From positions 930,001 through 994,000 of the forward strand of contig NC_020126.1 of the NCBI RefSeq assembly GCF_000331735.1: DNA of 64,000 bases, given 5' to 3'. Numbering within the stretch: position 1 is the stretch's first letter; every line of letters begins with the position of its first letter. The notes under the pieces were generated by a model. That model had not been told where the DNA came from, made no database searches, and saw nothing but the letters and a program-made list of their open reading frames with translations. A program made the translations under genes and the position numbers. Of the stretch, positions 12,673 through 28,148 are shown in pieces. This DNA is from Myxococcus stipitatus DSM 14675 (GTDB taxonomy: Bacteria; Myxococcota; Myxococcia; Myxococcales; Myxococcaceae).

Positions 12673-13467
12673 ATGGAAGCCGTCACGGAGAACATGTCCT
12701 GCGAGTCCCCTGAGCTTGAGATTCCCGGCGCGGTGGTTGAGGCGCGAGTGAGGGATCACCTCGATTTGGTGGAACGGCTGGCGTGGAAATACCGGTGGAC
12801 GGGCTTGCCGCAGGACGAGCTGGTCGCGGAAGGCAACGTCGGGCTGATGGAGGCGGCCGGCCGGTTCGAGGACCGGGGGATTCCGTTCGGGGTGTACGCC
12901 AGCCAGTGGATCCGGGCGCGCATCCGGGCCTACGTCGGGCGCAACTGGAGCATGGCGGGTGGGCGTGCGCCCTGGGTGGTGTTCCAGCTGCGGCGGGAGC
13001 GGGCGCGGCTGGAGGCCCGGTGGGGGGAGGGGCACCCGGAGGTGGTGCGCCGGCTGGCGGACGCCCTGGGCAAGAAGGAGGAGGACGTGGCCAAGGCGTC
13101 GGAGTCGCTGGCTCGGGACCTGTCGCTGGACGCGCCGGTGACGCAGGACGGGGAGGTGACGCGGCTGGAGGTGCTGGAGGGGCACGAGGTCTCGCAGGAG
13201 GACGTGGTCGACCAGGCCCAGTGGGCGGCGCGCCTGCGGGCGAGCGTGGAGGCGGCGTGGCCGGAACTGGACGCTCGGGAGCGGGCGCTGGTGGAGGAGC
13301 GGATGCTGGTGGAGGAGGGGGCGAGCGCGGAGCTCCTGGCGCGCCGCTTCGGCGTGACGGCGGTGCGTATCCGGCAGATCGAACAGGGCCTGAGGGCGAA
13401 GCTGAAGCGCAGGCTCACCGCGAGTCTGACGCCCTGGGACGCGGAGGCGATGCCGCGGGCGGCGTAA
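12673..13467 (+). CDS. RpoH/SigB-SigC-like alternative sigma factor
   Basis: 264 aa. Sigma-70 region 2 (LVERLAWKYRWTGLPQDELVAEGNVGLMEAAGRF, then IPFGVYASQWIRARIRAYV) and region 4 with helix-turn-helix (LDARERALVEERML ... GVTAVRIRQIEQGLRAKLKRRL). There is no region 1.1, and the family is that of RpoH and the stationary-phase/development sigma factors of Myxococcus. The ATG at 12673 follows a perfect GGAGGAGG. Positions 2.3-2.4 look diverged (GRAPWVVFQLRRERARL), so its promoter sequence is probably not the standard heat-shock one. No anti-sigma gene is adjacent. Confidence 0.8.
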   Translation: MEAVTENMSCESPELEIPGAVVEARVRDHLDLVERLAWKYRWTGLPQDELVAEGNVGLMEAAGRFEDRGIPFGVYASQWIRARIRAYVGRNWSMAGGRAPWVVFQLRRERARLEARWGEGHPEVVRRLADALGKKEEDVAKASESLARDLSLDAPVTQDGEVTRLEVLEGHEVSQEDVVDQAQWAARLRASVEAAWPELDARERALVEERMLVEEGASAELLARRFGVTAVRIRQIEQGLRAKLKRRLTASLTPWDAEAMPRAA

Positions 13468-13554: not shown

Positions 13555-13627
13555 GCCCAGGTAGCTCAGTCGGTAGAGCAGGGGACTGAAAATCCCCGTG
13601 TCGGTGGTTCGATTCCGCCCCTGGGCA
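13555..13627 (+). tRNA. tRNA-Phe (anticodon GAA)
   Basis: The cloverleaf folds completely. The acceptor stem is GCCCAGG with CCTGGGC, and the D arm is GCTC/GAGC. The anticodon stem GGGGA/TCCCC closes loop CTGAAAA with anticodon GAA. The T arm GGTGG/CCGCC closes TTCGATT. The discriminator base is A and the CCA end is not encoded. Confidence 0.95.
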
Positions 13628-13648
13628 CATCGCAGTTGAAGAGATTTC

Positions 13649-13734: not shown

Positions 13735-13763
13735 GGGAACTTTTCGGTGCGGCCGATGTGTCC
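13735..13763 (+). promoter_or_regulatory. ECF-type promoter 1 (sigma gene autoregulation)
   Basis: GGGAACTT, 15 nt, GTGTCC. This is identical in both boxes and spacing to the elements at 15064 and 16830. A -35 core GGAAC is the hallmark of ECF sigma promoters. It ends 9 nt before the sigma start codon. Confidence 0.8.
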
Positions 13764-13772
13764 CCGGTGGGC

Positions 13773-14291
13773 GTGAGTCCCCGGTCCTTCATCGAACGTG
13801 CCCTGGAGCACCTGCCTGCCCTGCGGCGGGTGGGCCGCCGGCTGACGGGCAGCTCGGCCGAGGCGGATGACCTGGTCCAGGAGACGGTGGCCCGCGCCCT
13901 GGAGCGGCGGGGTGAGGTGAGGGAGCCGGAGCGCCTCAAGGGCTGGCTGCTCGCCGTGCAGCGCACCGTGTACCTCAACTCCCGTCGAGGGCTGCGGCCT
14001 CGGCTGGAGGTGCTGGAGGGTGGGTTGGGGAAGGAAGTCGCGGAGCCTTGCGCGGACCTGGAGGCGGAGCTGCACGCGCGCTCGCTCAGCGCGGGGATGC
14101 AGAAGGCCTTGGACTCACTGGCCCCGGATTGGCGCGACGCGCTGTGGCTGAGGGAAGTCGAGGAGCTGAGCTACGAGGAGATTGCCCAGGTGCAGGGCTG
14201 CCCCGTGGGGACGGTGCGCTCGCGTCTGGCGAGGGCTCGACTGGCGATGCTCGAGGTCCTCGAGAAGGAGAAGGCACATGGAAGCCTGTAG
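13773..14291 (+). CDS. ECF sigma factor of the sulfur/thiol locus
   Basis: 172 aa. Sigma region 2 (ALRRVGRRLTGSSAEADDLVQETVARAL, LKGWLLAVQRTVYLNSRR) and region 4 (LDSLAPDWRDALWLREVEELSYEEIAQVQGCPVGTVRSRLARARL) without region 3, the ECF layout. I choose the GTG at 13773 because the upstream candidate GTG at 13758 lies inside the -10 element. The resulting message is nearly leaderless and the protein has normal ECF length. The stop overlaps the anti-sigma start by 14 nt. The element GGGAACTT-N15-GTGTCC precedes this gene and two downstream transcription units, so the protein most likely recognises it and drives its own expression. Confidence 0.88.
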   Translation: MSPRSFIERALEHLPALRRVGRRLTGSSAEADDLVQETVARALERRGEVREPERLKGWLLAVQRTVYLNSRRGLRPRLEVLEGGLGKEVAEPCADLEAELHARSLSAGMQKALDSLAPDWRDALWLREVEELSYEEIAQVQGCPVGTVRSRLARARLAMLEVLEKEKAHGSL

Positions 14292-15045
14292 CCTGGAGTG
14301 GCAGGAGCGGCTCTCCGCGGCGTTCGACGGGGAGAATCCGGCGCATGAGCAGCGGGCCCTGGAGCAGCACCTCGCGCGATGCGCGGGCTGTGCCCGGGAG
14401 CTGGCTCGCTATGACTCGCTGCGCGTCGCGCTGAGGGCGCAGGCCGTGGACCCAGGTGTGTCTCCCGAGTTGGAGGCGCGGGTCCACCGGTTGGCCATGC
14501 GTCCTCGCTGGGCCCTCTCCAGGGGCGCGCTCGCGGCGGGAGGCGCCATCGCGGCGCTGTTGGCTGTCGGCGTGTTCTGGACGTCGCGGACGGGCCTCGT
14601 GGGAGGCATGAACGACGCGCTCGCGATGGACCTGGAGCGGCATCACCTCAAGGCGTTCTCGCGCGCGGCGCCGTGTGAGTTCGAGTCCTCGAATCCGGAG
14701 GACGTCAAGGCGTGGGTGGAGCGGGAGGTCGGCTACGCGGTGGACGTGCCGTCGGTGCCGGGGGCGGAGCTGCTGGGGGCTCGCCGCTGCCAGCTGCATG
14801 GCGAGGTCTCCGCTTCGCTGCTGTACAGGCATGGGGACAAGGCGATGACCCTCTTCCTGCCGGAGCCGGGCTCGCCCGTCGCGAAGGCCGCCGCGCGCTT
14901 CGCGGGGGACGGGACTCGCTGCACACAGGGGCCGGTGGGCGAGCGCATCTGCGTGGCTCCTCGGGGAAGCGGGCACGCGGCCCTGGCTGTTTCGGAGGCG
15001 GAGTCACCGGTGCTTCTCGAGGCCCTGGCTCGCTTGTCTCCTTGA
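14278..15045 (+). CDS. Membrane anti-sigma factor with zinc-binding N-terminus and four-Cys extracytoplasmic domain
   Basis: 255 aa. The N-terminal cytoplasmic part carries the ZAS motif H-x3-C-x2-C (LEQHLARCAGC) that holds ECF sigma factors. One membrane helix follows at about 85-104 (LAAGGAIAALLAVGVFW). The outer domain has four Cys, in PCEFESS, RRCQLHG, TRCTQG and ERICVAP. That is enough for two disulfides, so redox sensing is an attractive inference given the CcdA-thioredoxin gene next door. The start at 14278 lies behind GAGAAGGAGAAGG and overlaps the sigma gene. Confidence 0.85.
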   Translation: MEACSLEWQERLSAAFDGENPAHEQRALEQHLARCAGCARELARYDSLRVALRAQAVDPGVSPELEARVHRLAMRPRWALSRGALAAGGAIAALLAVGVFWTSRTGLVGGMNDALAMDLERHHLKAFSRAAPCEFESSNPEDVKAWVEREVGYAVDVPSVPGAELLGARRCQLHGEVSASLLYRHGDKAMTLFLPEPGSPVAKAAARFAGDGTRCTQGPVGERICVAPRGSGHAALAVSEAESPVLLEALARLSP

Positions 15046-15063
15046 ACCCTTCGTCGAGTGGCC

Positions 15064-15092
15064 GGGAACTTTCGAGGGTTCCCGCCGTGTCC
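15064..15092 (+). promoter_or_regulatory. ECF-type promoter 2 (CcdA-thioredoxin gene)
   Basis: GGGAACTT-N15-GTGTCC, the second copy of the element, about 58 nt upstream of the ATG at 15151. Confidence 0.8.
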
Positions 15093-15150
15093 TCGCGCGC
15101 ATGAGTGATTGTCTTCAGCGGTTGTTCCGCCACGGTGTGGGAGGTTCGCG

Positions 15151-16341
15151 ATGAGCCTGGGCCTTCCCGGCATCTTCCTCGCGGGGCTGCTGACGTTCCT
15201 GTCCCCCTGCATCCTCCCGCTGGTCCCCTTCTACCTGTCGTTCCTCGCGGGCGTGTCCCTGTCTCAGTTGCGAGAGACGGGCGGCACCGCGCGACGTCCC
15301 TGGGGCGTGGCGCTGGCGTTCTCGCTGGGGCTCGCGACGGTGTTCATCGCGCTGGGGATGGCGGCCACCGCCGTGGGCGGGGCGCTCTCGGAGCACCGCG
15401 ACTGGCTCCTGCGCTTGGGTGGCGTCGCGCTGCTCCTGCTCGGACTCAAGCAGCTGGGGCTCATCAAGCTTCCCTGGGTGGACCGGGAGTCGCGGCCGTG
15501 GCTGGACCGCGTGCGCAAGGGGGGCAGTGTCGCGGGGGCCTTCTTGTTCGGCGGCGCCTTCGCGCTGGGCTGGACGCCGTGCATCGGCCCCGTGCTCGGG
15601 GCGGTGCTCACGTACACCGCCGCCTCCACCTCCGAGCCGCTGATGGGCGCGCTCTATCTGGGCACCTATGCCGCGGGACTGTCCGTCCCCCTGGTGCTCA
15701 CGGCGGCCATCGCGCCCTTGGCGCTGAAGTGGATGGAGCGCGCGAAGCGCCACCTGCGCAAGTTCGAGATGGCCACGGGCGTGCTGCTCGTCGGCGTGGG
15801 GGTGTTGCTCTTCACTGACTCGCTGCAGAAGCTGGTGCCCTCGGTCCAGGCGGTGGAGGTCGCCGCTCCCGTGCAGTCGTCGGCGCCCGTGACGGCGGAG
15901 GCGGCGGTGTGTGGCACGGAGTCGGAGGGCGCGTGTGCGCTTCCGGAGCAGGGCTTTGTTCCCTCGAGCGACGCCCCCTCCGTGCTGGCTGGCGTCAAGC
16001 GCCCGACGATGGTGGAGTTCGTGAGCCAGAGCTGCCCCGTGTGTCAGCGGATGGAGCCCGTGGTGGCCATGGCGGCGCAGGTGTGCTCACACGAGGGAGT
16101 TGACGTCCTGCGTCTGGATGTCGGCACCGCGGAGGGGCGGCAGGCCGCGAACCGCCATGGCGTGCGAGGGGTGCCCACGTTCCTCTTCCTGGACGGTGCT
16201 GGCCAGGAGGTCGCGCGGCGGGTGGGCGAGCAGCCCCTGACCTCGCTCCGTGAGGGGCTGGAGACGATTGCCGGCGTGCGTTGTGCCGGCCTCCTCCCGA
16301 CGGAGGCTCCCACGGCGCCCCAGGGGAGCGCCGGCACCTGA
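15151..16341 (+). CDS. CcdA/DsbD-like thiol transporter fused to thioredoxin domain
   Basis: 396 aa. The N-terminal two thirds is CcdA: GLLTFLSPCILPLVPFYLSF with the first redox Cys, GAFLFGGAFALGWTPCIGPV with the second, and six membrane helices. The C-terminal domain (about 285-385) is thioredoxin-like with active site SCPVC, and GVRGVPTFLFLDG supplies the cis-Pro. CcdA moves electrons from cytoplasmic thioredoxin across the membrane. The fused domain is a DsbD-gamma-like acceptor that would pass reducing power to periplasmic thiols. The start at 15151 follows GGGAGG. Two further Cys in the linker (AAVCGTESEGACAL) are notable. It has its own ECF promoter. Confidence 0.88.
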   Translation: MSLGLPGIFLAGLLTFLSPCILPLVPFYLSFLAGVSLSQLRETGGTARRPWGVALAFSLGLATVFIALGMAATAVGGALSEHRDWLLRLGGVALLLLGLKQLGLIKLPWVDRESRPWLDRVRKGGSVAGAFLFGGAFALGWTPCIGPVLGAVLTYTAASTSEPLMGALYLGTYAAGLSVPLVLTAAIAPLALKWMERAKRHLRKFEMATGVLLVGVGVLLFTDSLQKLVPSVQAVEVAAPVQSSAPVTAEAAVCGTESEGACALPEQGFVPSSDAPSVLAGVKRPTMVEFVSQSCPVCQRMEPVVAMAAQVCSHEGVDVLRLDVGTAEGRQAANRHGVRGVPTFLFLDGAGQEVARRVGEQPLTSLREGLETIAGVRCAGLLPTEAPTAPQGSAGT

Positions 16342-16450
16342 TGGCCGGTGTCCAGGGGGTGAATCCTTTCGCCCCCTTCGTGACTCTCACCTCGCTGAAT
16401 CATCACCTGCTGGAGGCCCTCGAGGCTCCGGCGCGGGTTGGAGTCACGCC

Positions 16451-16795
16451 ATGAAGCTCGTTCTCGTTGCTGTCGCAGTGCTCGCGGGTGTGCTGGGAGT
16501 CGCATGTACGCGCGAGCGGCCGGAAGTCCGTGCCGAGGCCCACAAGTGGGTGGAGTCCGGCGCCCTGCTGGTGGACGTTCGCACGCCGGAGGAGTTCGCG
16601 GACGGCCACCTGCCCGGTGCGTTGAACATCCCGGTGGACCAGCTCTCGGAGCGGCTGGGGGAGCTCGGCTCGCCCGAGAAGCCCGTGGTCGTCTATTGCC
16701 GCAGCGGCAAGCGCAGCACCCGTGCGGAGACGATGCTGAAGGAGCGAGGCTTCCAGCAGGTCCTCAACCTGGGGCCCATGTCGGCCTGGGAGTGA
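16451..16795 (+). CDS. Rhodanese-domain lipoprotein (sulfurtransferase)
   Basis: 114 aa. Signal peptide with lipobox VLGVAC, then a single rhodanese domain: LLVDVRTPEEFADGHLPGALNIPVD and the active-site loop YCRSGKRS with catalytic Cys. It should sit in the periplasm tethered to a membrane. Rhodaneses move sulfane sulfur, for example between thiosulfate, persulfides and sulfite or thiols. Lying between a thiol-reductant exporter and a SoxB-like enzyme supports a periplasmic sulfur role. The small basic active loop is of the single-domain PspE/GlpE kind. Likely transcribed with the upstream CcdA gene (109-bp gap). Confidence 0.85.
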   Translation: MKLVLVAVAVLAGVLGVACTRERPEVRAEAHKWVESGALLVDVRTPEEFADGHLPGALNIPVDQLSERLGELGSPEKPVVVYCRSGKRSTRAETMLKERGFQQVLNLGPMSAWE

Positions 16796-16829
16796 TGGCG
16801 CGGTGCGCTGCCGGCCGTGAGTCCCTGAC

Positions 16830-16858
16830 GGGAACTTCGCGCGGCGGGCCTGGTGTCC
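16830..16858 (+). promoter_or_regulatory. ECF-type promoter 3 (SoxB-like gene)
   Basis: GGGAACTT-N15-GTGTCC, the third copy of the element, 37 nt upstream of the ATG at 16896. Confidence 0.8.
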
Positions 16859-16895
16859 TGCGAGGGCTCTCTTTCCCCTTCCAAGGTGCTTCACG

Positions 16896-18494
16896 ATGAT
16901 TCGTCTCCTCCGCGCGCCCGCTGTCTGTCTGGCCCTGTGGGCCCTGGCTTCGGGCTGTGCGACCTCGCGGGCCGGTGTCGACACGACGGCCTCCGCGCGT
17001 CAGCAGCTCACCGTGCTCTATGTCGCGGACCTGCATGCCCAGCTCCGCGCTCATCCCGAGCTCTTCTGGCGGGATGGTCAGGAGCGCATCGAGGAGGCCG
17101 GCGGCTTCGCGCGTGTGGCCGCCGCCATCCAGCGGATTCGCGCGGAGCGCGGCGGTGAGGTGCTGGTGCTCGACGCGGGGGACACGATTCAGGGCTCGGG
17201 CGCGGCCGCGCTCACCGAGGGTCGTGCGCTCATCGCGCCGCTCAACGCGCTGGGCCTGGACGGCGCGGTGCCGGGCAACTGGGAGGTGGTGTATGGCCCC
17301 GCGGTATTGCGGGAGCGTGCGCGGGAGATGAAGCATCCGCTGTTCGCCGCGAACCTGCGGGATGCGAGCAGCGGTGAGCGCCTCTTCCCGCCGTACCTGG
17401 TGAAGGAGGTGGGCGGAGTGAAGGTCGCGGTGGTGGGGTTCACGGACCCGGATGTTCCGCGCCGTCAGCCACCGGGCTACAGCCAGGGCCTGCGCTACGA
17501 CGGTCCCGAGGAGCTGCCTTCGCTCGTGCGCAAGGTCCGCGAGCGCGAGGGCGCGCAGGTGGTGTTGTTGATGTCGCACGTGGGGTTGGCCAAGGCGGTG
17601 GGGCTCGCGGCGCGGGTTCCCGGGGTGGATGTCCACCTGTCCTCGGACACGCATGAGCGCACCTATGAGCCCGTGGTGGAGAGCGGGAGCTGGGTGGTGG
17701 AGCCGGGAGCGTTCGGTTCGTTCCTCGGGCGGCTGGATGTGTGGGTGGAGGGAGGGCGGGTGGTGGACCGCCGCTGGGAGCTCATCGAGCTCACCGCCTC
17801 GCGCTTCCCCGAGGACCCCCAGGTGGCGCGTCTGGTGGACGCGGCGCTGGCTCCGCATGAGGAGACGCTGTCGGCTCCCGTGGGCCATACCGACGTCACG
17901 CTCGCGCGGTACGCGGTGGTGGAGAACCCGCTCGACAACGTGCTGGCGGATGCGATTCGGGTCGCGGGCGGCACGGAGATTGGGTTGTCCAACGGCTTCC
18001 GCTTCGGCACGCCGCTGCTGCCTGGGCCGGTTCGTGAGGCGGACTTGTGGAACATGTTCCCCATCGTGAACAAGCTGAAGACGGGGAAGGTGAGCGGGCG
18101 TCAGCTTCGGGCGTTCTGGGAGCAGGAGCTGGAGAACGTCTTCGCGAAGGACCCGGAGAAGCGCTTTGGCGGGTGGTTGCCGCGTCCCTCGGGGATGACG
18201 CTGCGGTTCAAGGCGGATGCGCCGAAGGGACAGCGCCTCCTCGCGCTGGAGGTGGGTGGTGTTCCGGTGGAGGCCGAGCGGCTCTACACCGTGACGGCGT
18301 GTGAGCGGGAAGGGGATGCGCCGGACATGGTGTGCCGCATCCCGGGCATCCAGGAGCCGCGTGTCCTGGAAGTGGATGCACACGAGGCGGTGCGCCGCTT
18401 CCTCGCCGGAAAGCCTCGTCTCCAGTCGGAGCTGCAGGGCCGCGCGGTGGGCGAGGACCTTCCCGCGGTGCTGCGAACCCAGCAGGTCCAGTAA
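16896..18494 (+). CDS. SoxB-like / 5'-nucleotidase family metallohydrolase, lipoprotein
   Basis: 532 aa. Lipobox ALASGC at the N-terminus. Metallophosphatase motifs: YVADLHAQL, DAGDTIQGSG, GNWEVVYG, MSHVGLAK and SSDTHE. The 5'-nucleotidase C-terminal domain contains PLDNVLADAIR and NGFRFGTPLLPG. Several of these, especially QGSG, the Trp in GNWE, and GFRFGTPLLPG, resemble thiosulfohydrolase SoxB (GHWEFTYG, GFRWGTTLLPG) more than UshA (GNHE). The usual GNHE His is Trp, and the first His of GHTH is Asp, so the metal site is altered. SoxB releases sulfate from thiosulfonate. With rhodanese and persulfide dioxygenase as neighbours, a sulfur substrate is more likely than a nucleotide. That substrate call is inference. 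Confidence 0.72.
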   Translation: MIRLLRAPAVCLALWALASGCATSRAGVDTTASARQQLTVLYVADLHAQLRAHPELFWRDGQERIEEAGGFARVAAAIQRIRAERGGEVLVLDAGDTIQGSGAAALTEGRALIAPLNALGLDGAVPGNWEVVYGPAVLRERAREMKHPLFAANLRDASSGERLFPPYLVKEVGGVKVAVVGFTDPDVPRRQPPGYSQGLRYDGPEELPSLVRKVREREGAQVVLLMSHVGLAKAVGLAARVPGVDVHLSSDTHERTYEPVVESGSWVVEPGAFGSFLGRLDVWVEGGRVVDRRWELIELTASRFPEDPQVARLVDAALAPHEETLSAPVGHTDVTLARYAVVENPLDNVLADAIRVAGGTEIGLSNGFRFGTPLLPGPVREADLWNMFPIVNKLKTGKVSGRQLRAFWEQELENVFAKDPEKRFGGWLPRPSGMTLRFKADAPKGQRLLALEVGGVPVEAERLYTVTACEREGDAPDMVCRIPGIQEPRVLEVDAHEAVRRFLAGKPRLQSELQGRAVGEDLPAVLRTQQVQ

Positions 18495-18541
18495 CGCAAC
18501 TTTTGTCTCAACCGAGTCCTGTACTCAGAAAGGCACTCCAC

Positions 18542-19252
18542 ATGCTCTTCCGACAACTCTTCGACTCAGAGTCCTCGACGTACACCTATCTGCTGGCGGA
18601 CGAGCGGACGCGAGAGGCGCTGCTCATCGACCCCGTCATCGAGCAGGTGGACCGCGACATCAAGCTGCTGGGCGAGCTGGGGCTCACGCTGCGCTTCGTG
18701 CTGGAGACCCACGTCCACGCCGACCATGTGACGGCGGCGGGCGTGCTGCGGCAGCGCATGGGGGCACAGGTCGTGGCGAGCCGCCTGGGGGCGCCGTGTG
18801 TCGACCGGCAGGTGTCACACGGTGACGTCGTCGAGATGGGGTCGCTGCGCCTCGAGGTGCTCGAGACGCCGGGCCACACCGACGACAGCGTGAGCTACCG
18901 GATGGAGGACCGGGTCTTCACGGGAGACACCTTGCTGGTGCGCTCGGCCGGGCGGACGGACTTCCAGAACGGGAGCGCGAGCGCGCTGCATGACTCCCTC
19001 ACGCGAGTCCTCTTCGCGCTCCCCGCGGGCACCCTGGTGTATCCCGGCCATGACTACAAGGGGCACTCGGTGAGCACCATCGACGAAGAGATGCGCCACA
19101 ACGCGCGTGTGGCGGGACGCAACCGCGAGGACTTCATCCAGTTGATGAACGGCCTCCAGTTGCCGCCGCCCAAGAAGCTCTCCGTGTCCGTGCCCGCCAA
19201 CCTCGCTTGTGGGGTGGTCGAGCCGGCGCGGATGCCCTCCGTGAAGGCGTGA
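18542..19252 (+). CDS. ETHE1-type persulfide dioxygenase (MBL fold)
   Basis: 236 aa. Metallo-beta-lactamase fold with THVHADH and the distal metal residues in GHTDDS and FTGDTL. The ETHE1 signatures RTDFQNGS and YPGHDYKG set it apart from glyoxalase II. ETHE1 enzymes use mononuclear iron to oxidise glutathione or other low-molecular-weight persulfide to sulfite. A Myxococcus xanthus homologue is a known persulfide dioxygenase. The ATG at 18542 is 47 bp after the SoxB-like stop, so it is probably co-transcribed from promoter 3. No signal peptide: cytoplasmic. Confidence 0.9.
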   Translation: MLFRQLFDSESSTYTYLLADERTREALLIDPVIEQVDRDIKLLGELGLTLRFVLETHVHADHVTAAGVLRQRMGAQVVASRLGAPCVDRQVSHGDVVEMGSLRLEVLETPGHTDDSVSYRMEDRVFTGDTLLVRSAGRTDFQNGSASALHDSLTRVLFALPAGTLVYPGHDYKGHSVSTIDEEMRHNARVAGRNREDFIQLMNGLQLPPPKKLSVSVPANLACGVVEPARMPSVKA

Positions 19253-19319
19253 AACGACATCGCGCCGGGAGTGCACAGGGCCTCGGGCCCGTGCCTTCTG
19301 GACAGGAACGACAAACACG

Positions 19320-20414
19320 ATGACTGCTCCACTAGCGACACCCGACACGACGGTCTCCGCGCCTGGCAGTGGTGCGGCGGCGGGCCCGGTGACACCTGCT
19401 GCTTCGCCCTCCACGGGGGAGGTCTGGAGGAGGCGTCTGCCGGGGTTGGTGCTGGCCGCGGCGTTGGCGGTGGGGAGCTATTGGCTCGCCACGTTGCCGG
19501 GGCTGAAGGTGGTGGGGCCGCTGACGGTGGCGTTGTTGGTGGGCATCGCGCTGCGCTCGACGATGGCGGCGGGGATTCCCTCGGTGTGGGTGGAGGGGCA
19601 GCGCTACTCGGCGCGCACGGTGTTGCGGTTGGGCATCGTGCTGATGGGGGCGCGGCTGGACTTCGCGCTCGTGGCGAAGGTGGGGCCGAGGGTGCTGGTG
19701 TTGGCGATGGCGGTCATCGTCGGAGGCATCCTGGGCATCCGGTGGGTGACGCAGCGCTTCGGTGTGCCGGAGAAGCTGGGGACGTTGCTGGCGGTGGGGA
19801 CGTCCATCTGTGGTGCGAGCGCGGTGGTGGCGGCGAGCTCCGTCACGCGAGCGGAGGAGGAGGACACCACGCTGGCGGTGGGGCTGTGCGGGATATTGGG
19901 GACGATGGGCGTGCTGTTCTACGTCTTCGTGGGCCCGTTGCTGGGGTTGACCACGGCGCAGCTCGCGATTCTCTCGGGGGCCACGTTGCACGAGGTGGCG
20001 CAGGTGATGGCGGCGGCGTTCACCTGGGGGACCACGGCGGGGGATTTGGGGACGCTGGTGAAGCTGACGCGGGTGGTGTTGTTGGCGCCGGCGCTGGTGG
20101 TGCTGGGGTTGGTCTCTGGCTCGGGCGGGAAGGTGCGCTACTCGTGGAAGGAGCCGCCGATTCCGTGGTTCGTGCTGGGGTTCCTCGCGGTGGGGGTGCT
20201 CGGCTCGGTGGGAGTGGTGCCCGCGGCGGGGAAGGCCGCGCTCTCCACGGCGAGCGTCTTCCTCATGGTGATGGCCATGGGGGCGATGGGAATGGGGACA
20301 CACATCAGCATGCTGCGCCGTGCGGGCATGCGAGTGGTCTACGCGGGCCTCGTGGGCTTCGCGGCCCTGGCGCTGTCGGCCTGGGGCCTCATCCACCTGC
20401 TGTCGATTCAGTAG
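19320..20414 (+). CDS. YeiH/UPF0324 family putative sulfate/sulfur-oxyanion exporter
   Basis: 364 aa with about ten membrane helices. Family motifs: GIALRSTM, ARTVLRLGIVLMGARLDF, VGTSICGASAVVAASSV and the conserved TLHEVAQVMAAAF. The family (TC 2.A.98) is annotated as putative sulfate exporters because members sit in sulfonate and sulfur catabolic loci; transport has rarely been measured. It ends the plus-strand sulfur locus, where the logical cargo is sulfite or sulfate made by the dioxygenase and SoxB-like enzymes. Its last 26 bp overlap the tail of the convergent McrC-like gene. Confidence 0.85.
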   Translation: MTAPLATPDTTVSAPGSGAAAGPVTPAASPSTGEVWRRRLPGLVLAAALAVGSYWLATLPGLKVVGPLTVALLVGIALRSTMAAGIPSVWVEGQRYSARTVLRLGIVLMGARLDFALVAKVGPRVLVLAMAVIVGGILGIRWVTQRFGVPEKLGTLLAVGTSICGASAVVAASSVTRAEEEDTTLAVGLCGILGTMGVLFYVFVGPLLGLTTAQLAILSGATLHEVAQVMAAAFTWGTTAGDLGTLVKLTRVVLLAPALVVLGLVSGSGGKVRYSWKEPPIPWFVLGFLAVGVLGSVGVVPAAGKAALSTASVFLMVMAMGAMGMGTHISMLRRAGMRVVYAGLVGFAALALSAWGLIHLLSIQ

Positions 20415-22005
20415 CGAGGAGTGTGTGACGGAGCCACTCGATGAGCTCCGGGGGCGGTGGTTGCCCGGGCGTCAGGCAGAAGACGCCCACGTGGTGCTCG
20501 TCGCGGAAGGACTTCTCGAACCAGGGCTCCGTCTGGGGGAGCCGGGTGGGAACGAGCAGCACCGCGCCCGCGCAGCGTCCTTGCTCGCCCAGGTCTCGCC
20601 AGCGGAGTGAGTCGCGGTAGATGTGCGCGGACTCGAAGGCGTCGGCGATGCCTCGGGTGTCGGTGCGGTACTTCGCGTCGAGGCACAGCCAGCGCGCGGG
20701 CCCCTCTTCTGGATGCCACGTCACGACGAGGTCCGGACGCCTCGTCTTCGAGATGCTCCAGCGTGAGCTCCGCTTTCGCTCTCGCGTGAGGAACCCTGGG
20801 AACGAGAGGTTGAAGTGGAGGGTCAGGGTCCCGTGGCCCGGCCATCGCGCGGTGTAGCTGGCGCCATGTGGTGACTCGTCGAAGAGTCGAAGGGTGTCGG
20901 TGTTGTCTTCGCTCCACCGGGCCTCGGGGAGGAGCTCCTCCAGCAGTCGTCGCAGCGCGAGGAACGTCCAGAGCTCATAGAGCTCGTAGGACGGCCGCAC
21001 GGGGGCGGCGAGGTGTGCATCGTCGGCGGGGAGCTGGAACCGGGGGGAGAGGAAGAGCTGGCCGAAGGCGTGGACCCGCGCATAGAGCGGGTCATCGACG
21101 AAGGTGAGGATCGCCGAGTCCGACGCGTACTCGGGAGTCATCGCGCCCAGGGGTGTTTCGAGCAGGAGCGCCTCGAGGTCATCGGCTCCTCGAGCCAGGT
21201 GCCGGACGCGGCCCTTGCACCACTCTTCGAGGTCCGGGTCCAGTGACTGCGTCTTCTGGAGCCCTCGCTGGACACACTCCACGGTGTCGCGAAGCTTGAG
21301 GACCACTTGCCGCGTCAGCCACGCGACGTGGCGATTGGCTGCGTGGTCCAGGGCGCCTTGCCATGCTCGACTGGGGACTCGCGGGACCGGGCCCGTGCCG
21401 AAGCTCTCCGCGTAGCCTCGGACACCTTGGTAGGTGTTCGGATGGCTGGCCAGCCAGCGCAAGGTGCCTCGGTCCGCTTGTTTGACCGAGTGGATGGGGA
21501 CCTCGGTCCAGAGCTCGACGGACTGCTCCTTGGGGGAACGGAGCACGGACATCAGCGCGGTCTCGAACGCGGGCACCAGGTCGCCGAGCACCGAGGCCAC
21601 TCCCGCGATGTCGCAGCCCTGGTGACTCACGCGGCCGTGCCGGCCTCCTTCCTGGCCGACGGTGGTGCCGGGCATCCACGCGTCCAGGTCGCGCAGCAGA
21701 TGGGCCCAGGCTTCGCTCCGGAGCTTGTTCTTGTGAGGGAGTACCTCGACGGAGAGGTGTTGCTCTCCCTGGGGGCCCTGGATGCGCAGGGATTGCGTCC
21801 CGACCCAGTAGCTCGTCCGAAGGGTGAAGCTCGCGGAGGCGGAGTCCCACTCCAGCTCCAGCTCGCCGAGCCAGCCGCGACACTCCACCCGCGCGGCTTG
21901 GTTCAGCTGAAGGGCGAGCCTGTAGGTCCGGTCCTCTTCCAGGACGACGACACCATCCTGGATGATTCCTTCGAGGTGACGACCTTTCGCATCCCGGAAG
22001 TGCAT
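20389..22005 (-). CDS. mcrC: McrC-like nuclease subunit (DUF2357/PD-(D/E)xK)
   Basis: 538 aa. An N-terminal beta-rich part is followed by a helical region and a C-terminal PD-(D/E)xK nuclease: RRPDLVVTWHPEEG, then LCLDAKYRTD, giving the D ... DAK catalytic set at about 425-445. This is the arrangement of McrC, the endonuclease partner of the McrB motor in modification-dependent (type IV) restriction. The ATG at 22005 is 1 nt beyond the stop of the McrB-like gene, so the two are translationally coupled. The long N-terminal half matches DUF2357-type variants rather than the short E. coli McrC. Confidence 0.78.
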   Translation of the reverse strand: MHFRDAKGRHLEGIIQDGVVVLEEDRTYRLALQLNQAARVECRGWLGELELEWDSASASFTLRTSYWVGTQSLRIQGPQGEQHLSVEVLPHKNKLRSEAWAHLLRDLDAWMPGTTVGQEGGRHGRVSHQGCDIAGVASVLGDLVPAFETALMSVLRSPKEQSVELWTEVPIHSVKQADRGTLRWLASHPNTYQGVRGYAESFGTGPVPRVPSRAWQGALDHAANRHVAWLTRQVVLKLRDTVECVQRGLQKTQSLDPDLEEWCKGRVRHLARGADDLEALLLETPLGAMTPEYASDSAILTFVDDPLYARVHAFGQLFLSPRFQLPADDAHLAAPVRPSYELYELWTFLALRRLLEELLPEARWSEDNTDTLRLFDESPHGASYTARWPGHGTLTLHFNLSFPGFLTRERKRSSRWSISKTRRPDLVVTWHPEEGPARWLCLDAKYRTDTRGIADAFESAHIYRDSLRWRDLGEQGRCAGAVLLVPTRLPQTEPWFEKSFRDEHHVGVFCLTPGQPPPPELIEWLRHTLLATESTAGG

Positions 22006-22006
22006 G

Positions 22007-24286
22007 TCACGACCAGAACCGGATGATGCCCGTGCGGGGGTTGTTGGCCTCCATCTGGCTCAGCTTCTCTCCACACCGCTCGAGGGACTCTGTTTCGCAG
22101 AGCTTCTTGAGGACGGTGAAGGCGTTGCGCAGCTCAGGACTCGATTCGCCTCGGAGGCGAGGGAGGACCTTGGAGAAGATTCCCTGGTCCAGCAGGCGCA
22201 CACGCTCCTCGGGGAGCGCTTCGGAGCCGGCTGCTTCCACGAAGGAGAGGAGCTCGCCCGCGGTGCGGTAGCCGAAGTGCCGGCGAATGGGCCGCAGGGC
22301 TTGGTGGAACGACTCGATGGTGCGCTCCAGCGCGGGCTGGCGTTCGACCTGTCGAGCCTCGAAGAAGGCGCGGAGATTGACGTCCCAGAACTCCAGGGTG
22401 AAGGCGCGGTCCAGCACCTTGTCGCTGAAGGGGAAGGTGGTCTCGTCCATGTTCACCGTGCCCGCGATGAACAGGTTTCGCGGCCATGCGAGCCGATGCG
22501 GGACGCCGTTGACGGGCGAGTCCTGGCCATGCAGCGCGATGGGAAGCCCGGACTCCATCGACGAGAGGAAGGGGGCGAAGTACTGCTCGACCCGTGCGAG
22601 GTTCATCTCATCCAAGAGCAGGAAGTAGGGCTTGGATGGGTTCCGCGCGGCGCTGAGCAACAGGCGGAGTGTGGGCTCCACCTGGAACGTCGGCGTCTCA
22701 TGCAGGGCGTTGTAGTAGCCCAGCAGTCCGGTGGGGTCCTTCCAGTCGGGAGAGACGGCCACGACCTCCAGGTGCTTCTCCAGGTCCAGGTCCAACGCCG
22801 CGCAGTAGACGCGCGCATAGTGCCGGACGAGCGCCGTCTTCCCGGTCCCGGAGAGCCCCGCGAGGATGACGAAGCGCTTGTGGGGATGGCAGTGCCACGC
22901 ATGGTGGAGCGCGCTGAGCTGGGAGTCGTCGAGCACGAACCCCTGGGTCTGTGGATCCTCCTGGAACCCCTGACGCAGCTCGGGCAACCCGGGCCATGGA
23001 CGGGTGGGAGGCTCGATGGCTTTCAGCTCTTGGGCCACCTCCGCCACCACGTCCGCGAGCAGGTCCGCGGAGACAGTGGCTTCGGGCGGGAGCATCGGCA
23101 GCTCCTGTGGCAGCCGTGCTTCCCATTCGGCGCCATACTCGCTGAGCTGGTACTTCCCGTCCGCTTGATGCTCCACCAGACCGAGTGCCTTGACCCACGT
23201 CAGGTTCGCGGTGGGGGCCATGGTGGCCGTCCAGCGAGGGTAGATCTGCTGCTGGTAGGTGATGATCTCTGGGGTGGTGCGTGGCTCGGCCTTGACGAAT
23301 CGCAAGATGGCCGCGATGGGGAAGACCCGCTCGAGCATCCGATGAACCAAGATGTCGGGCGCGTCGCACTCCACGAGCTCGAACCCATCCCAGGTGGGGG
23401 AGATGACTTTGTTGCGCTCTTCGAGAAAGCCCAAGCCGATGACTCGCGCGGTGAGGCTGCGGAGCGTCGAAGGCGACAGGGCATTGTAGTCCTCGAGGCT
23501 GCCCAGCTCCTCTCGAAGCTCCTCGCGCGTGATGCCCGAGAGCGAGGTGTCAATCACATGCCGATAGGTTTCAACGAGAAGCCTGAGCGCCGCGTTGGCC
23601 TTGAACTGTCTGGCAAACGGCCACAGTGCGATGGGCTTGGGCGGACCGAGGGGCGTTGGCGTGGCCGGAAATGAATCGAACTGGCCCGCCTTGATGGCCT
23701 CGTAGTGGGCGTGGAGCCACCAGCAGAACACGGAGCGGCGGACATGCTCGTCCAGCGCTCGCTCGGTTCCGAGAATCTTCCGCAGACGGCTTCGGACGAG
23801 GACGTGACTGTGCGGACTGTTCTCGGGCAAGAGCAGGTCCGCGATGCGGAGCTGGGCCTGATAACCGAAGGCGCAGTGAAACTCCGCGGGGAGCAGCACT
23901 GCGAGCAGGCGCTCCAGTCGAGCCTCGGGGCGTCGAGGGCTGTGGCGCGGAGAAACGAGCCCGGAGAGTCGTTCGCTCTCGTCCTTCATCGCCTCGGCGC
24001 GTTCGCCAGGATCCCTGGGCCAGGTGAAGTGCCGGACGTTGATGATGGCGGCGGTGAGCTCCGGGTCGGTGAACGCCCCCGTCATGGTCCCCTTGCCGCC
24101 CGGCCCGAGAAGGCTGAGGGTGTCGGCCGACCAGAGCAGCTCCTGGTTCTCAGGGGTGGCAAGCTCCTCGTCCGAGAGGCCACGGACCTTCAGCAGCATG
24201 TCGCGGTAGTTCGCCTGCCACTGCTCCCACCCTGGGAACGGCTGGGCCTTCTCCCAGAGCTTCTTCACCTGTGCATCGGTCAGCAC
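22007..24286 (-). CDS. mcrB: McrB-like AAA+ motor protein
   Basis: 759 aa from a GTG at 24286 with GGGGGCAGG upstream; an ATG at 24409 would overlap the previous gene by 44 bp and cannot be excluded. The C-terminal AAA+ module has Walker A (AGLSGTGKTALV, about 480), Walker B (YFLLLDEMNLARVEQYF, about 560) and sensor region GTVNMDETTFPFSDKVLDRA, the McrB variant of NTAD. The N-terminal 450 residues have no domain I recognise and probably contain a DNA- or modification-reading domain plus a winged-helix region (KALGLVEHQADGKYQLSEYG). It works as a hexameric translocase with the McrC-like nuclease. Confidence 0.78.
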   Translation of the reverse strand: MLTDAQVKKLWEKAQPFPGWEQWQANYRDMLLKVRGLSDEELATPENQELLWSADTLSLLGPGGKGTMTGAFTDPELTAAIINVRHFTWPRDPGERAEAMKDESERLSGLVSPRHSPRRPEARLERLLAVLLPAEFHCAFGYQAQLRIADLLLPENSPHSHVLVRSRLRKILGTERALDEHVRRSVFCWWLHAHYEAIKAGQFDSFPATPTPLGPPKPIALWPFARQFKANAALRLLVETYRHVIDTSLSGITREELREELGSLEDYNALSPSTLRSLTARVIGLGFLEERNKVISPTWDGFELVECDAPDILVHRMLERVFPIAAILRFVKAEPRTTPEIITYQQQIYPRWTATMAPTANLTWVKALGLVEHQADGKYQLSEYGAEWEARLPQELPMLPPEATVSADLLADVVAEVAQELKAIEPPTRPWPGLPELRQGFQEDPQTQGFVLDDSQLSALHHAWHCHPHKRFVILAGLSGTGKTALVRHYARVYCAALDLDLEKHLEVVAVSPDWKDPTGLLGYYNALHETPTFQVEPTLRLLLSAARNPSKPYFLLLDEMNLARVEQYFAPFLSSMESGLPIALHGQDSPVNGVPHRLAWPRNLFIAGTVNMDETTFPFSDKVLDRAFTLEFWDVNLRAFFEARQVERQPALERTIESFHQALRPIRRHFGYRTAGELLSFVEAAGSEALPEERVRLLDQGIFSKVLPRLRGESSPELRNAFTVLKKLCETESLERCGEKLSQMEANNPRTGIIRFWS

Positions 24287-24365
24287 GACACCTGCCCCCA
24301 GCCTGTCCGCGGTTGCTGTTCTCGGACGGAAACGATGCCACGTCCATTCGGACAGCGGCAACCAC

Positions 24366-27300
24366 TCACGTCGTGAGGACTCCGAGTGTCCAGCGAGTGC
24401 GGGTGTCATCCCAGTGTGCCACGCCTTCGTATCGCCAGAGGTCTCGAGCGACTTCGCGCGTCAGCACGAAGGCTGTCTCTCCGGGTCTGCGGTCCGCGAC
24501 ACGCGCGTCGAGACGAATCCCATCAGTATCCGTTGAGACAAGGAACAGGTGTCCATCCCGTCGCCCCGTCTTGGGTGTCGTGGACAAGTCGAAGTGCTCC
24601 ATGGCCTGTGCCTCCGTCAGGCGAGCACCGCGCGGTGGCGCGAGGCTCTCGGGTGTCAGCACCTCGACCAACTGGGCGATGGGCATGACTCCTTCGTTCA
24701 CATCCTTCGTGGCGTATGCAGGATTGTCGGACCGCAACCGCCACTGATTGGCGGCACGGACCAGCCGCTTCACCTGATAGGCATATCCCGCCGCATCAGG
24801 CACCTGGATGAGCGCTACCTGGCCCTCGAGTTCCCTCGGTGAGAGATCGCGGGCGTAGCGCATCACCAGCCAGTCTCCGTCACGGATGGGATGGTCTCCG
24901 CCATTCATCGAATCGCCTGATGCGCGCACCGCGAACAGCCCTTCACCTCTCGCTTGAACCGGCAGGCGCACCCACTCCGCTTCGGGAGCTTGCTCCAGCG
25001 AGAGGGCGTGGCTCGCCGCTCCCGCTGCGGCTCGCAGCGTTGGGAAGGAGATGCAGCCCATGGGGCGCTTGAAGGCGAGCACCTCGGCGCGCGCTGGCTC
25101 GACGCTCCATCCATCGGCGCGTGGCGTGAATCGCACGCGGAAGGCCGTGCCGGGCTTCCCCGCGAAGTCCTCGAACCAACCTCTCAAGAGCTTCGGGAGC
25201 TGGTTCTTCTCCGCTCCAGCGGGCTTCGCGACGTTGACGGCGATCTTCACGAAGTGGAACTGCCACGGCTCACCCCCAGGGATGCGAACCTCGGTGATGC
25301 CTTGGGGAAGGTCGGGGCGCTGCTTCCGGTCCGGGAGCTTGAGGATCGGCTCGCGTTGGTTGGTGATGACCTGGGCCTCGAAGGGTGTCCCGGGTCCTCG
25401 CGACTGGCTGAGCTGCCGCCGGCGGTACTGCGCGAGTCGGTACTCGACCAGCTCTCGGGTCATCTCCTCGAAGGCGTCTCGGGTGTCCTCGGTCAGCGCG
25501 AAGCGCGGGACGAATCTGTCCCCCTCCACCCGGAACCACTTCCCATCCTGGGTCCACTCGCGGACAGGGAGTGAGCTGTCGAGTGCTTCGGCTCCTTCGA
25601 TGTCTCTCATCAGCTCGGGATTGCGCCGCAGGATGGACAGGCTCCGTTGCGCCAGCTCTTGCAAGGACAGTCCTTGCTCCAATGCATCCGCTTCGAGCAA
25701 TGCCTCCAGCAGCACCATCTTGAAGCACTTGCTCATGGGCGTGAGCTCGAGATTCCGGAACCACGCCGGGTCTTGCTTCAGGGCTCGGGTCTGCGCATCC
25801 GTGAGGTCCTTCTCTGCCTCCACGAACTGGAACCAGCCAGAGTGCTCTTCATGCCTGCTCAGTGACGCAGGCGCATAGCCCAGCCGGTACAGCTCTCCGA
25901 TGGTAGGCCGCTGACCTCGGCTGTCTCGCAGCTCGCGGTAGACGCGCGCAACCTCCGTCTCTCCTGTCGCCAGGAAGTGGCGCAGCATCTCCTTCGCTTC
26001 GACCTCCACCTGCACGGAACAACCCGGTGGCAGCTCGGGCTGCTTGCCGTGCACCAGGAAGTCCCGGAGCGACATCGCCCCTCGCCCCAGTGCCAGCAGC
26101 GTGCGCACCCGGTCGAGGAACAACCGATGGTTGCCCACGAAGTCGATGACCGTGACGCGGGTCTTCCCCTCGGACTTGCGCAGCCCTCGGCCCAGCTGCT
26201 GAAGGAAGACGACGGGGGACTCCGTGGGGCGCAGCATCACCACGCGGTCGATGCTCGGCACATCCACACCCTCGTTGAAGAGGTCCACCGAGCACACCGC
26301 GTCCAGCGTCCCCGCCGCCAGCTCTCGCAGCGCCTGCGCCCGGTCCGCCGAGCCCGGCCCCGAGTAGACGGCCGCGGCCCTCACTCCCTTCTCCTCCAGC
26401 CACCGCTGGACGTAGTTCGCATGGGACACCGAGACACAGAACACGAGCGTCCTGCTCGCCGCGTGCTCCTCCCAGGCTCGCCACAGCGTCCGCATCCGCG
26501 CTTCCGTCTGGACCGCTTGCGCCAGCGCCTCCGGCTCGAAGCTCCGGCTTCGCCAGGGGAGGTTCTCGTAGGGCACGTCATCCTTGAGCCCCAGGTACGC
26601 GAACGGCGTCAGCAGCCCCGCTTCGATGCCTTCTCCCAGGTCCGCCCGATAAGCGAGGTGGTCATCGAACAGCCCCAGGATGTCGCCATCATCCGCGCGC
26701 TCGGGCGTCGCCGTCAGGCCCAGCAGGAACGCCGGCTCCAGCCGCGAGAGAATCACCCGGTAGCTCGCCGCCGCGGCGTGATGCACTTCATCCACGATGA
26801 CGTAGTCGAAGCGGGCCGCTGCTCGCAGCGCCTCCAACCCATCGCGATTCGACAGCTTCTGCACCGAGGCGAACACCACATCGCCCTCGAGCGAAGACTT
26901 CGAGCCCACGTACCAACCAAAGCGCCGCCGAGGAAACTGGCGGCGAAAGGTCTCCGCCGCTTGGACCAACAGCTCCTCGCGATGGGCCAGGAAGAGGACG
27001 CGCGGCTGGACCTCTTGCTCTGCCTGAAAGGCAGCCACATCCCATGCGGCCAGCAACGTCTTCCCCAACCCCGTCGCCAACACCACCAGCGCACGCCGCC
27101 GACCTTCCTCCCGGCTTCGCGCGAGGGCTCGCAATGCCTCTCGCTGGAGCACGTGTGGCTCGCGAGGCGGAACCACCGACTCCGCTTCAACGGGGGCGCG
27201 CGTCCGCTGCGTGAGGCTCGCGCGGCGCGCATAGGCCTCCACCCAGTCCGCCTCCAGCGGCGTGGCTCGCTCCCACCAGTCCTCGAAGGCCTCGACCACT

Positions 27301-28148
27301 TCCCCCCAGGCCCGAGGGTCCCGGTCCTGCTCGACACGCAGGTTCCACTCGATGCCTGTCTTCAGCGCGGACCGGGAGATGTTGCTCGAGCCCACGTACG
27401 CCACCGCGAGCTCCTCCCCTTTGAACCGCCAGGACTTGGGATGGAACGAGGACACCCGCTCCTTCTCCACCTCCACGATGCGGGCCTCGAAGTGTCCTCG
27501 GCTTCCGCCCTGGAGCACGCTGTCCTCGTCCATCCAATCCAGCAGGCGTCGCAGCGCCTCCGCCTGGGTGATGGTCAGATAGTCCCCCGTGAGGATTCGC
27601 ACCCGCGCTCCTCGCAAGAGGGCCGCGTCCACGGACTGCCGCAGCACGTCCAACCCGCTGTCCTGCACGAACGCCGCGAGCACCGCGATATCCGTCGCAC
27701 GCGAGAACAGCGGCTCCAGGTGCGAGAGGAACGGGTCACCCAGTCCACCCGTGGCGAGCGGCTTCGCCTGTGGCGCGGCCAGGTGGTTCCCCTTGTGCGG
27801 AATGACATGCCGGACGCCACCGCGTGCGTCTCCGACGTCCCCCTGGAAGCGGGGAATGACATGCACATGCAGGTGGAACACCGTCTGCCCGGCCGCCGCG
27901 CCCACGTTGATGCCCAGGTTGTACCCATCCGGGCGCAGCTCCGCGTCCAGACCCCGCTTCACCTCGTCCACCAGCTCGAAGAGGGCGCGCTGCTCCTCGG
28001 CCGTGGCGTCGAACCAGGTGGCGACCGGGCGACGCGGAATCACCAGGGTGTGTCCCGGGCTCACCGGGAAGCCGTCTCGGATGGCGAAGGCCAGCGTGTT
28101 CGAGGCGACCCACCGGGATTCAGGAATCAGCAGGAAAGGGGAGGACAC
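24366..28148 (-). CDS. HIT-PLD-SF2 helicase-S24 multidomain protein, probable defence effector
   Basis: 1260 aa. Domain order: HIT nucleotide-binding domain (1-110, His triad FHLHVHVIP at 92-96); a phospholipase-D-like nuclease (about 150-290, HPK at 236-238 and GSSN with Asn 256); an SF2 helicase (Walker A ATGLGKT at 358-364, DEVHH at 453-457, LTATPERADD, QQLGRGLRKSEGKT). A large uncharacterised region with a DUF3427-like feel follows. Last is a LexA/UmuD-type S24 peptidase with GDSM (Ser 1080) and YQVK (Lys 1127). PLD-helicase fusions include the modification-dependent nuclease SauUSI. Placement 79 bp before McrB- and McrC-like genes on the same strand suggests one restriction-like system. 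The S24 part could allow self-cleavage on DNA damage; that is inference. Confidence 0.82.
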   Translation of the reverse strand: MSSPFLLIPESRWVASNTLAFAIRDGFPVSPGHTLVIPRRPVATWFDATAEEQRALFELVDEVKRGLDAELRPDGYNLGINVGAAAGQTVFHLHVHVIPRFQGDVGDARGGVRHVIPHKGNHLAAPQAKPLATGGLGDPFLSHLEPLFSRATDIAVLAAFVQDSGLDVLRQSVDAALLRGARVRILTGDYLTITQAEALRRLLDWMDEDSVLQGGSRGHFEARIVEVEKERVSSFHPKSWRFKGEELAVAYVGSSNISRSALKTGIEWNLRVEQDRDPRAWGEVVEAFEDWWERATPLEADWVEAYARRASLTQRTRAPVEAESVVPPREPHVLQREALRALARSREEGRRRALVVLATGLGKTLLAAWDVAAFQAEQEVQPRVLFLAHREELLVQAAETFRRQFPRRRFGWYVGSKSSLEGDVVFASVQKLSNRDGLEALRAAARFDYVIVDEVHHAAAASYRVILSRLEPAFLLGLTATPERADDGDILGLFDDHLAYRADLGEGIEAGLLTPFAYLGLKDDVPYENLPWRSRSFEPEALAQAVQTEARMRTLWRAWEEHAASRTLVFCVSVSHANYVQRWLEEKGVRAAAVYSGPGSADRAQALRELAAGTLDAVCSVDLFNEGVDVPSIDRVVMLRPTESPVVFLQQLGRGLRKSEGKTRVTVIDFVGNHRLFLDRVRTLLALGRGAMSLRDFLVHGKQPELPPGCSVQVEVEAKEMLRHFLATGETEVARVYRELRDSRGQRPTIGELYRLGYAPASLSRHEEHSGWFQFVEAEKDLTDAQTRALKQDPAWFRNLELTPMSKCFKMVLLEALLEADALEQGLSLQELAQRSLSILRRNPELMRDIEGAEALDSSLPVREWTQDGKWFRVEGDRFVPRFALTEDTRDAFEEMTRELVEYRLAQYRRRQLSQSRGPGTPFEAQVITNQREPILKLPDRKQRPDLPQGITEVRIPGGEPWQFHFVKIAVNVAKPAGAEKNQLPKLLRGWFEDFAGKPGTAFRVRFTPRADGWSVEPARAEVLAFKRPMGCISFPTLRAAAGAASHALSLEQAPEAEWVRLPVQARGEGLFAVRASGDSMNGGDHPIRDGDWLVMRYARDLSPRELEGQVALIQVPDAAGYAYQVKRLVRAANQWRLRSDNPAYATKDVNEGVMPIAQLVEVLTPESLAPPRGARLTEAQAMEHFDLSTTPKTGRRDGHLFLVSTDTDGIRLDARVADRRPGETAFVLTREVARDLWRYEGVAHWDDTRTRWTLGVLTT

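Follow-up and report, generated by a model that had tools for sequence, protein, structure and literature searches.

A locus in Myxococcus stipitatus DSM 14675 that joins genes for an extracytoplasmic function (ECF) sigma factor and its anti-sigma factor to genes for sulfur and thiol proteins very probably constitutes a genuine ECF sigma/anti-sigma regulon, one whose sensor and gene set are both unusual. The locus lies in a stretch of 64,000 nucleotides (contig NC_020126.1, positions 930,001 to 994,000 of the forward strand; henceforth the window, in whose coordinates positions are given). We propose, with a probability of roughly 0.5, that the sigma factor activates three operons, namely its own, one led by a CcdA-thioredoxin gene and one encoding a SoxB-like protein, a persulfide dioxygenase (PDO) and a YeiH-type membrane protein, and that an anti-sigma factor with four cysteines in its predicted periplasmic part senses thiol oxidation or persulfidation in the periplasm. 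What has been observed directly is the promoter motif, confined to the locus in this genome and found together with the genes in relatives, as well as how the cysteines are arranged and which known domains the proteins resemble.

The motif, GGGAACTT-N15-GTGTCC, occurs at 13735-13763, 15064-15092 and 16830-16858, each time on the forward strand and with identical boxes and spacing, exactly as described in an earlier reading of the window made from the letters alone (hereafter the sequence-only reading). As that reading also held, the three sites precede the sigma, CcdA-thioredoxin and SoxB-like genes (starts 13773, 15151 and 16896). It was likewise right that the units encode a rhodanese, a PDO and YeiH, and only their distribution had to be corrected: site 1 leads the sigma and anti-sigma genes, site 2 the CcdA-thioredoxin and rhodanese genes, and site 3 the genes for the SoxB-like protein, PDO and YeiH. 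Across the complete genome (10,350,586 bases in one contig), the pattern with spacers of 14-16 matched three times, at precisely these sites, compared with 0.058 matches expected from base composition, none for the reversed control and none in 100 shuffles of the window; chance, and with it random genome-wide occurrence, is thus ruled out as the source of the motif. The looser core GGAACTT-N15..17-TGTC yielded 14 matches in this genome against 18 in its reversed control, so that specificity rests on the full motif only and a wider regulon in this genome is not supported. The GTG start of the sigma gene lies 10 nt 3' of the -10 box; furthermore, starts assigned by homology fall 9-11 nt 3' of this box in 20 of 25 sigma promoters and 9 nt 3' of it in 7 of 16 ccdA promoters. 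Given these short distances, the sigma and ccdA mRNAs are probably leaderless. Through promoter 1, the sigma factor would regulate its own gene.

Comparison of genomes links motif and sigma factor. A sigma ortholog (E 1e-25) was found in 14 of 27 same-genus genomes, and the motif stands 5' of the sigma gene in 25 of the 26 fetched sigma/anti-sigma loci, the single miss being a locus of G052 (L131) with two remote sigma/anti-sigma pairs that lack it. Outside these counts are G146, whose sigma matches span residues 4-56 and 114-170 only, a G077 locus (L137) excluded as an anti-sigma fragment, and G075, which is not among the fetched loci. In the 14 sigma-bearing genus genomes, GGGAACYY-N15-GTGTC matched 48 times (3 in the reversed control), with 34 matches in the locus, 4 upstream of ccdA or dsrE genes located elsewhere and 10 in other places. 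The strict motif (N14-16) had 18 matches in the same genomes (14 in the locus, 2 at unlinked ccdA genes, 2 elsewhere), and a single one in the 11 genus genomes without the sigma factor; five of the 14 gave no strict match, their boxes having GGGAACCT or GGGAACTC or terminating in GTGTCA/T. A scan for GGGAACYY-N14/15-GTGTC that also took in 13 sigma-less genus genomes (see below) gave 49 matches in its other 13 genomes, 24 of them within the 11 fetched loci (controls, 4). Moreover, the motif is found upstream of unlinked ccdA genes in G007 and G018 and of unlinked dsrE genes in G008 and G014. Directly upstream of the G007 ccdA there is a stretch resembling the last 43 residues of the anti-sigma factor, which speaks for this gene having moved from the locus. 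A dsrE gene was detected in 15 of 19 genomes searched; in 13 of these, its coordinates place it inside the locus. Motif and genes thus co-occur across the Myxococcaceae, unlinked ccdA and dsrE included, and for sigma and ccdA they do so beyond the family as well. Two genomes without a sigma ortholog retain remnants: G021 keeps the order rhodanese, soxB, yeiH, dsrE, with GTGTCA preserved upstream of soxB, GCGAGCCG in place of GGGAACTT and no intact -35 box, and in G005 a soxB match that starts only at residue 243 or 244 is followed by yeiH. In G035, from another family, the sigma promoter has a spacer of N14 and the ccdA promoter, whose -35 box is weaker, one of N15; an unlinked soxB-dsrE unit of this genome is preceded by GGAACTC-N14-GTGTCT, a case that is only suggestive, because the loosened expression matched two further places in the same 19 kb. 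As a separate observation, a strict motif away from the locus in G012 (contig 277, L134, 3695-4268) stands 5' of a gene for a redoxin-like lipoprotein in which a TGA codon, read in frame, takes the place of the first active-site cysteine (UxxC); this suggests a selenoprotein target.

The regulators themselves are readily classified. The sigma factor scores 77.9 bits with the ECF model TIGR02937 (cut-off 42.9) and contains Sigma70_r2 and Sigma70_r4_2, and the anti-sigma factor, with zf-HC2 at 25.5 bits (cut-off 22.2), is predicted to belong to the zinc anti-sigma (ZAS) group and to have one transmembrane helix near residues 83-101. The sequence-only reading had counted four cysteines in the outer domain of the anti-sigma factor. 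Four are indeed predicted to be periplasmic (C133, C171, C215 and C225), and the full count is seven, the other three belonging to the zinc motif C4/H31/C35/C38, predicted to be cytoplasmic. All four periplasmic cysteines are kept in 46, and the zinc motif in 47, of 49 aligned relatives (out of 53 homologues, with P0158, P0163, P0168 and P0172 left out). Four same-genus paralogues, fetched from the 18 remote anti-sigma matches listed for the genus, possess zinc-type cysteines and none of the four periplasmic ones. This pattern supports the four cysteines as a candidate sensor. The periplasmic domain containing them is modeled in a form that matches the fold of the C-terminal domain of RseB/MucB. 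Among anti-sigma paralogues with similar periplasmic sequence (L206-L211, L131), the number of these cysteines is zero, two or three, which forms a stepwise series.

The phyletic distribution separates core from peripheral members. Anti-sigma matches at E 1e-20 or better occur in 27 of 195 genomes of the phylum. Outside the family (G034, G070, G029 and G035), the unit common to the locus comprises the genes for sigma, anti-sigma and CcdA-thioredoxin, and the motif stands 5' of sigma in all four and 5' of ccdA in three; in the Myxococcaceae, the SoxB-like protein, rhodanese, YeiH and DsrE are added. As judged from these neighborhoods, CcdA-thioredoxin is the most widely shared predicted target. 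In Pyxidicoccus fallax (contig 96715, L036/L046), the motif also stands 5' of a gene for a YeeE-type sulfur transporter. The CcdA-thioredoxin protein scores 81.8 bits with PF02683 (CcdA/DsbD_TM; cut-off 27.1) and carries SPC and TPC motifs together with a thioredoxin CPVC. The PDO matches ETHE1 (4chl) at E 4.4e-63, and its THVHADH fits HxHxDH, which places it among type I enzymes with a predicted PDO activity; no NCBIfam model exceeded its cut-off among the matches listed. The divergently encoded PDO of M. xanthus AM003 (contig 83870, L040/L047) is nearly identical to 4ysb, identified in parts of PMC6060420 and PMC12856154 as the M. xanthus persulfide dioxygenase.

Transcription by the sigma factor, the nature of the signal, the direction of electron flow and the substrates are what we infer beyond these observations. 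At rest, the zinc domain of the anti-sigma factor would hold the sigma factor; polysulfide, sulfane sulfur or another oxidant would introduce disulfides or polysulfides into the RseB-like periplasmic domain and thereby free it. CcdA-thioredoxin would then move cytoplasmic electrons outward for the reduction of periplasmic persulfides and probably also reduce the sensor, so that the system would shut itself off by negative feedback. The rhodanese, a likely lipoprotein, could serve as a sulfane sulfur carrier, in relatives together with DsrE, the SoxB-like enzyme might hydrolyze an S-substituted carrier or small thiol, and PDO could convert sulfur that reaches the cytoplasm into sulfite for export by YeiH. 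The scheme recalls Streptomyces sigma-R/RsrA, which likewise combines a zinc anti-sigma factor with a thioredoxin system among the targets and a product able to reset the sensor; RsrA, however, senses through a cytoplasmic zinc domain, whereas here the anti-sigma factor is a membrane protein with a four-cysteine periplasmic domain and the reductase is of the CcdA type. We also entertain a bolder hypothesis, tentatively and with more doubt than confidence: the locus might do in the periplasm what the sigma-R/RsrA/thioredoxin loop does in the cytoplasm. An RseB-type domain would have become a four-cysteine persulfide sensor reset by CcdA-thioredoxin, and the same sigma factor would drive a periplasmic sulfane-sulfur pathway independent of SoxYZ, in which a SoxB-type hydrolase receives its substrate from rhodanese and DsrE as the carriers instead.

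Several results weigh against the proposed regulon and its chemistry. GGGAACYY-N14/15-GTGTC matches 36 times in 13 sigma-less genus genomes (6 in the reversed control), so that the loose motif alone is not specific, and G021 has diverged further upstream, too, so that its loss extends beyond the -35 box itself. The similarity of the modeled periplasmic domain to RseB reached a Foldseek E of 0.015 at best, with none below 0.001. The PDO gene is 3' of soxB in just 6 of the 18 fetched soxB loci (this one, G009, G014, G008, G123 and G113), lies upstream of sigma in divergent orientation in 11 and was not observed at the G095 locus; in view of this variable placement, it does not count among the core targets. 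Of 9 genomes searched for ccdA, 6 yielded none although sigma and soxB are present (the copies in G119, G121, G095 and G146 are partial matches only), and a dsrE search of 19 genomes detected no such gene in M. stipitatus itself. The sequence-only reading had inferred a system that oxidizes sulfane sulfur through sulfite and thiosulfate and exports the product. From this interpretation, a single sigma-linked sulfur/thiol unit and the candidate cysteine sensor survive, given that the four cysteines are kept in the family and absent from the four paralogues; the chemical route and the nature of the signal gain no such support. The SoxB-like protein fails the TIGR04486 equivalog cut-off (276.2 vs 550 bits), its predicted structure is equally close to SoxB and to 5'-nucleotidases, and SoxY (PF13501) was detected in 7 of 146 genomes of the phylum and in none of the genus, M. 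stipitatus included, so that oxidation via Sox carriers is not an obvious route. (A SoxZ search was silent, in its controls too, and is not used as evidence of absence.) Membership in a canonical Sox cluster is rejected on the same grounds. YeiH as exporter of the product was a database name only: the protein falls below the TIGR00698 cut-off (164.7 vs 232.6 bits), although it passes the wider PF03601.

The alternatives differ in which part of the locus they take as its purpose. If the unit shared by the four genomes outside the family reveals the original function, the locus could be a general regulon for periplasmic disulfide or envelope stress, with CcdA-thioredoxin as its purpose, the sulfur genes as late additions and a misfolded or over-oxidized envelope protein, not sulfur, as the signal; the modeled resemblance of the periplasmic domain to RseB/MucB, an envelope stress sensor, is consistent with this. 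We consider it rather unlikely, however, since the Myxococcaceae additions and the unlinked dsrE encode sulfur proteins (SoxB-like, DsrE, YeeE, rhodanese, YeiH), and ccdA itself was missed in 6 of 9 genomes searched that retain sigma and soxB. The cytoplasmic zinc domain (C4, H31, C35 and C38) could be the redox sensor instead, losing zinc upon thiol oxidation as RsrA does, with the periplasmic cysteines forming structural disulfides. Zinc-type cysteines are shared, however, with the fetched paralogues that lack periplasmic ones and so leave the special four-cysteine domain unexplained, which makes this reading unlikely.

Sulfite or thiosulfate might be the signal, as in Sinorhizobium RpoE4, with YeiH/TauE-type export or oxidation as the output. 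Persulfide dioxygenases produce sulfite, according to parts of PMC6060420, YeiH is encoded here and TauE adjoins the locus in G006, and there is precedent in what PMC3511301 and PMC6527743 report in part; yet a Pfam scan detected no sulfite dehydrogenase gene among those of the locus, the -35 and -10 boxes are unlike the published GGAAT/CGTC, and PDO, the presumptive source of sulfite, is peripheral. On balance, this possibility appears distinctly unlikely. The structural ambiguity of the SoxB-like protein invites a reading as a 5'-nucleotidase, with the locus devoted to nucleotide or phosphate scavenging; this is improbable, given that the protein scores 276 bits with the SoxB profile and at most 99 with nucleotidase profiles, that it is fused to a DsrE domain in two relatives (P0018 and P0034), and that the remaining targets encode sulfur or thiol proteins.

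Judged by analogy, the closest functional counterparts of the proposed thiol- or persulfide-responsive regulon are the sulfite-activated ECF26 sigma factors of Sinorhizobium and Starkeya. As described in parts of PMC3511301 and PMC6527743, S. meliloti RpoE1/RpoE4 and Starkeya novella SigE respond to sulfite and control its oxidation, with sulfite dehydrogenase SorT/SorAB as target and promoters of -35 GGAAT and -10 CGTC. They share with the present locus a sigma factor with its own anti-sigma gene, a regulon of few operons and an output in periplasmic sulfur chemistry; unlike here, CcdA, SoxB, rhodanese and PDO targets do not appear in those parts. The opinion that no comparable sigma regulon is known must therefore be softened, although those regulons differ from the present one in genes and promoters. 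Titles and opening lines of abstracts on ECF sigma/anti-sigma factors with sulfur genes contained no description of this regulon or of its sigma factor. The RseA-RseB/MucA-MucB (sigma-E) systems are comparable in the modeled periplasmic domain, which here, unlike there, is part of the anti-sigma factor itself, follows the zinc domain and contains four cysteines. Sox clusters with SoxV/SoxW and SoxB similarly unite CcdA, thioredoxin and a SoxB relative (SoxV being a CcdA orthologue that reduces SoxW, according to a title cited in PMC10451225), but in the present genus SoxY was not detected, the SoxB-like protein falls below the SoxB cut-off, and rhodanese and DsrE are possible carriers. Finally, reactive sulfur is sensed through cysteine di- and polysulfides by CstR, SqrR/BigR and FisR, as parts of PMC9774590 relate; these repressors (CstR, SqrR/BigR) and activator (FisR) are DNA-binding regulators, in contrast to a sigma/anti-sigma pair, and the terms "sigma factor" and "anti-sigma" are absent from the main text of that review of reactive sulfur sensing.

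Features of the locus in window coordinates, with the basis of each assignment
Feature	Position	Strand	Basis or remark
Promoter 1	13735..13763	+	-35 GGGAACTT, N15, -10 GTGTCC; 5' of ECF sigma gene
ECF sigma factor, 172 aa, regions 2 and 4	13773..14291	+	GTG start; Pfam Sigma70_r2, Sigma70_r4_2
Anti-sigma factor, 255 aa	14278..15045	+	zf-HC2, cysteine counts, hydropathy, model, fold match
Promoter 2, boxes and spacing as in promoter 1	15064..15092	+	5' of ccdA
Possible leaderless 17-codon upstream reading frame (predicted)	15101..15154	+	Stop overlaps ccdA start (ATGA)
CcdA/DsbD_TM membrane domain fused to thioredoxin domain, 396 aa	15151..16341	+	Pfam DsbD_TM, Thioredoxin
Single-domain rhodanese, likely lipoprotein	16451..16795	+	Pfam Rhodanese 5.6e-20; lipobox read from sequence
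Promoter 3, boxes and spacing as in promoters 1 and 2	16830..16858	+	5' of soxB-like gene
SoxB-like protein, 532 aa, likely lipoprotein, related to SoxB and 5'-nucleotidases	16896..18494	+	TIGR04486 276 bits
Type I PDO, ETHE1-like	18542..19252	+	4ysb closest among solved structures, E 4.8e-98
Membrane protein (YeiH/UPF0324), probable exporter of sulfur oxyanions	19320..20414	+	PF03601 226 bits

The predicted 17-codon frame upstream of ccdA recurs with equal geometry in G009, G014, G008 and the more distant G113, that is, in five genomes including this one. A second gene of the sigma-70 family (12673-13464) lies upstream of the locus, and a tRNA-Phe gene, read by eye, at about 13560-13634, shortly 5' of promoter 1. 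Downstream, on the reverse strand of the window (20392-28148), a DUF2357/PD-(D/E)XK gene is followed by two genes recognized by eye, one large and AAA-type, the other helicase-like; the group looks like a McrBC-type defense cluster.

With the present analysis, a myxobacterial sigma factor gains a compact, testable regulon, and the M. xanthus persulfide dioxygenase whose structure has been solved (4ysb) is placed beside a sigma factor. The findings also suggest a path from an RseB-type domain to a thiol sensor. Furthermore, if the SoxB-like/DsrE/rhodanese unit functions without SoxYZ, heterotrophic bacteria would have a novel route for sulfur in the periplasm.

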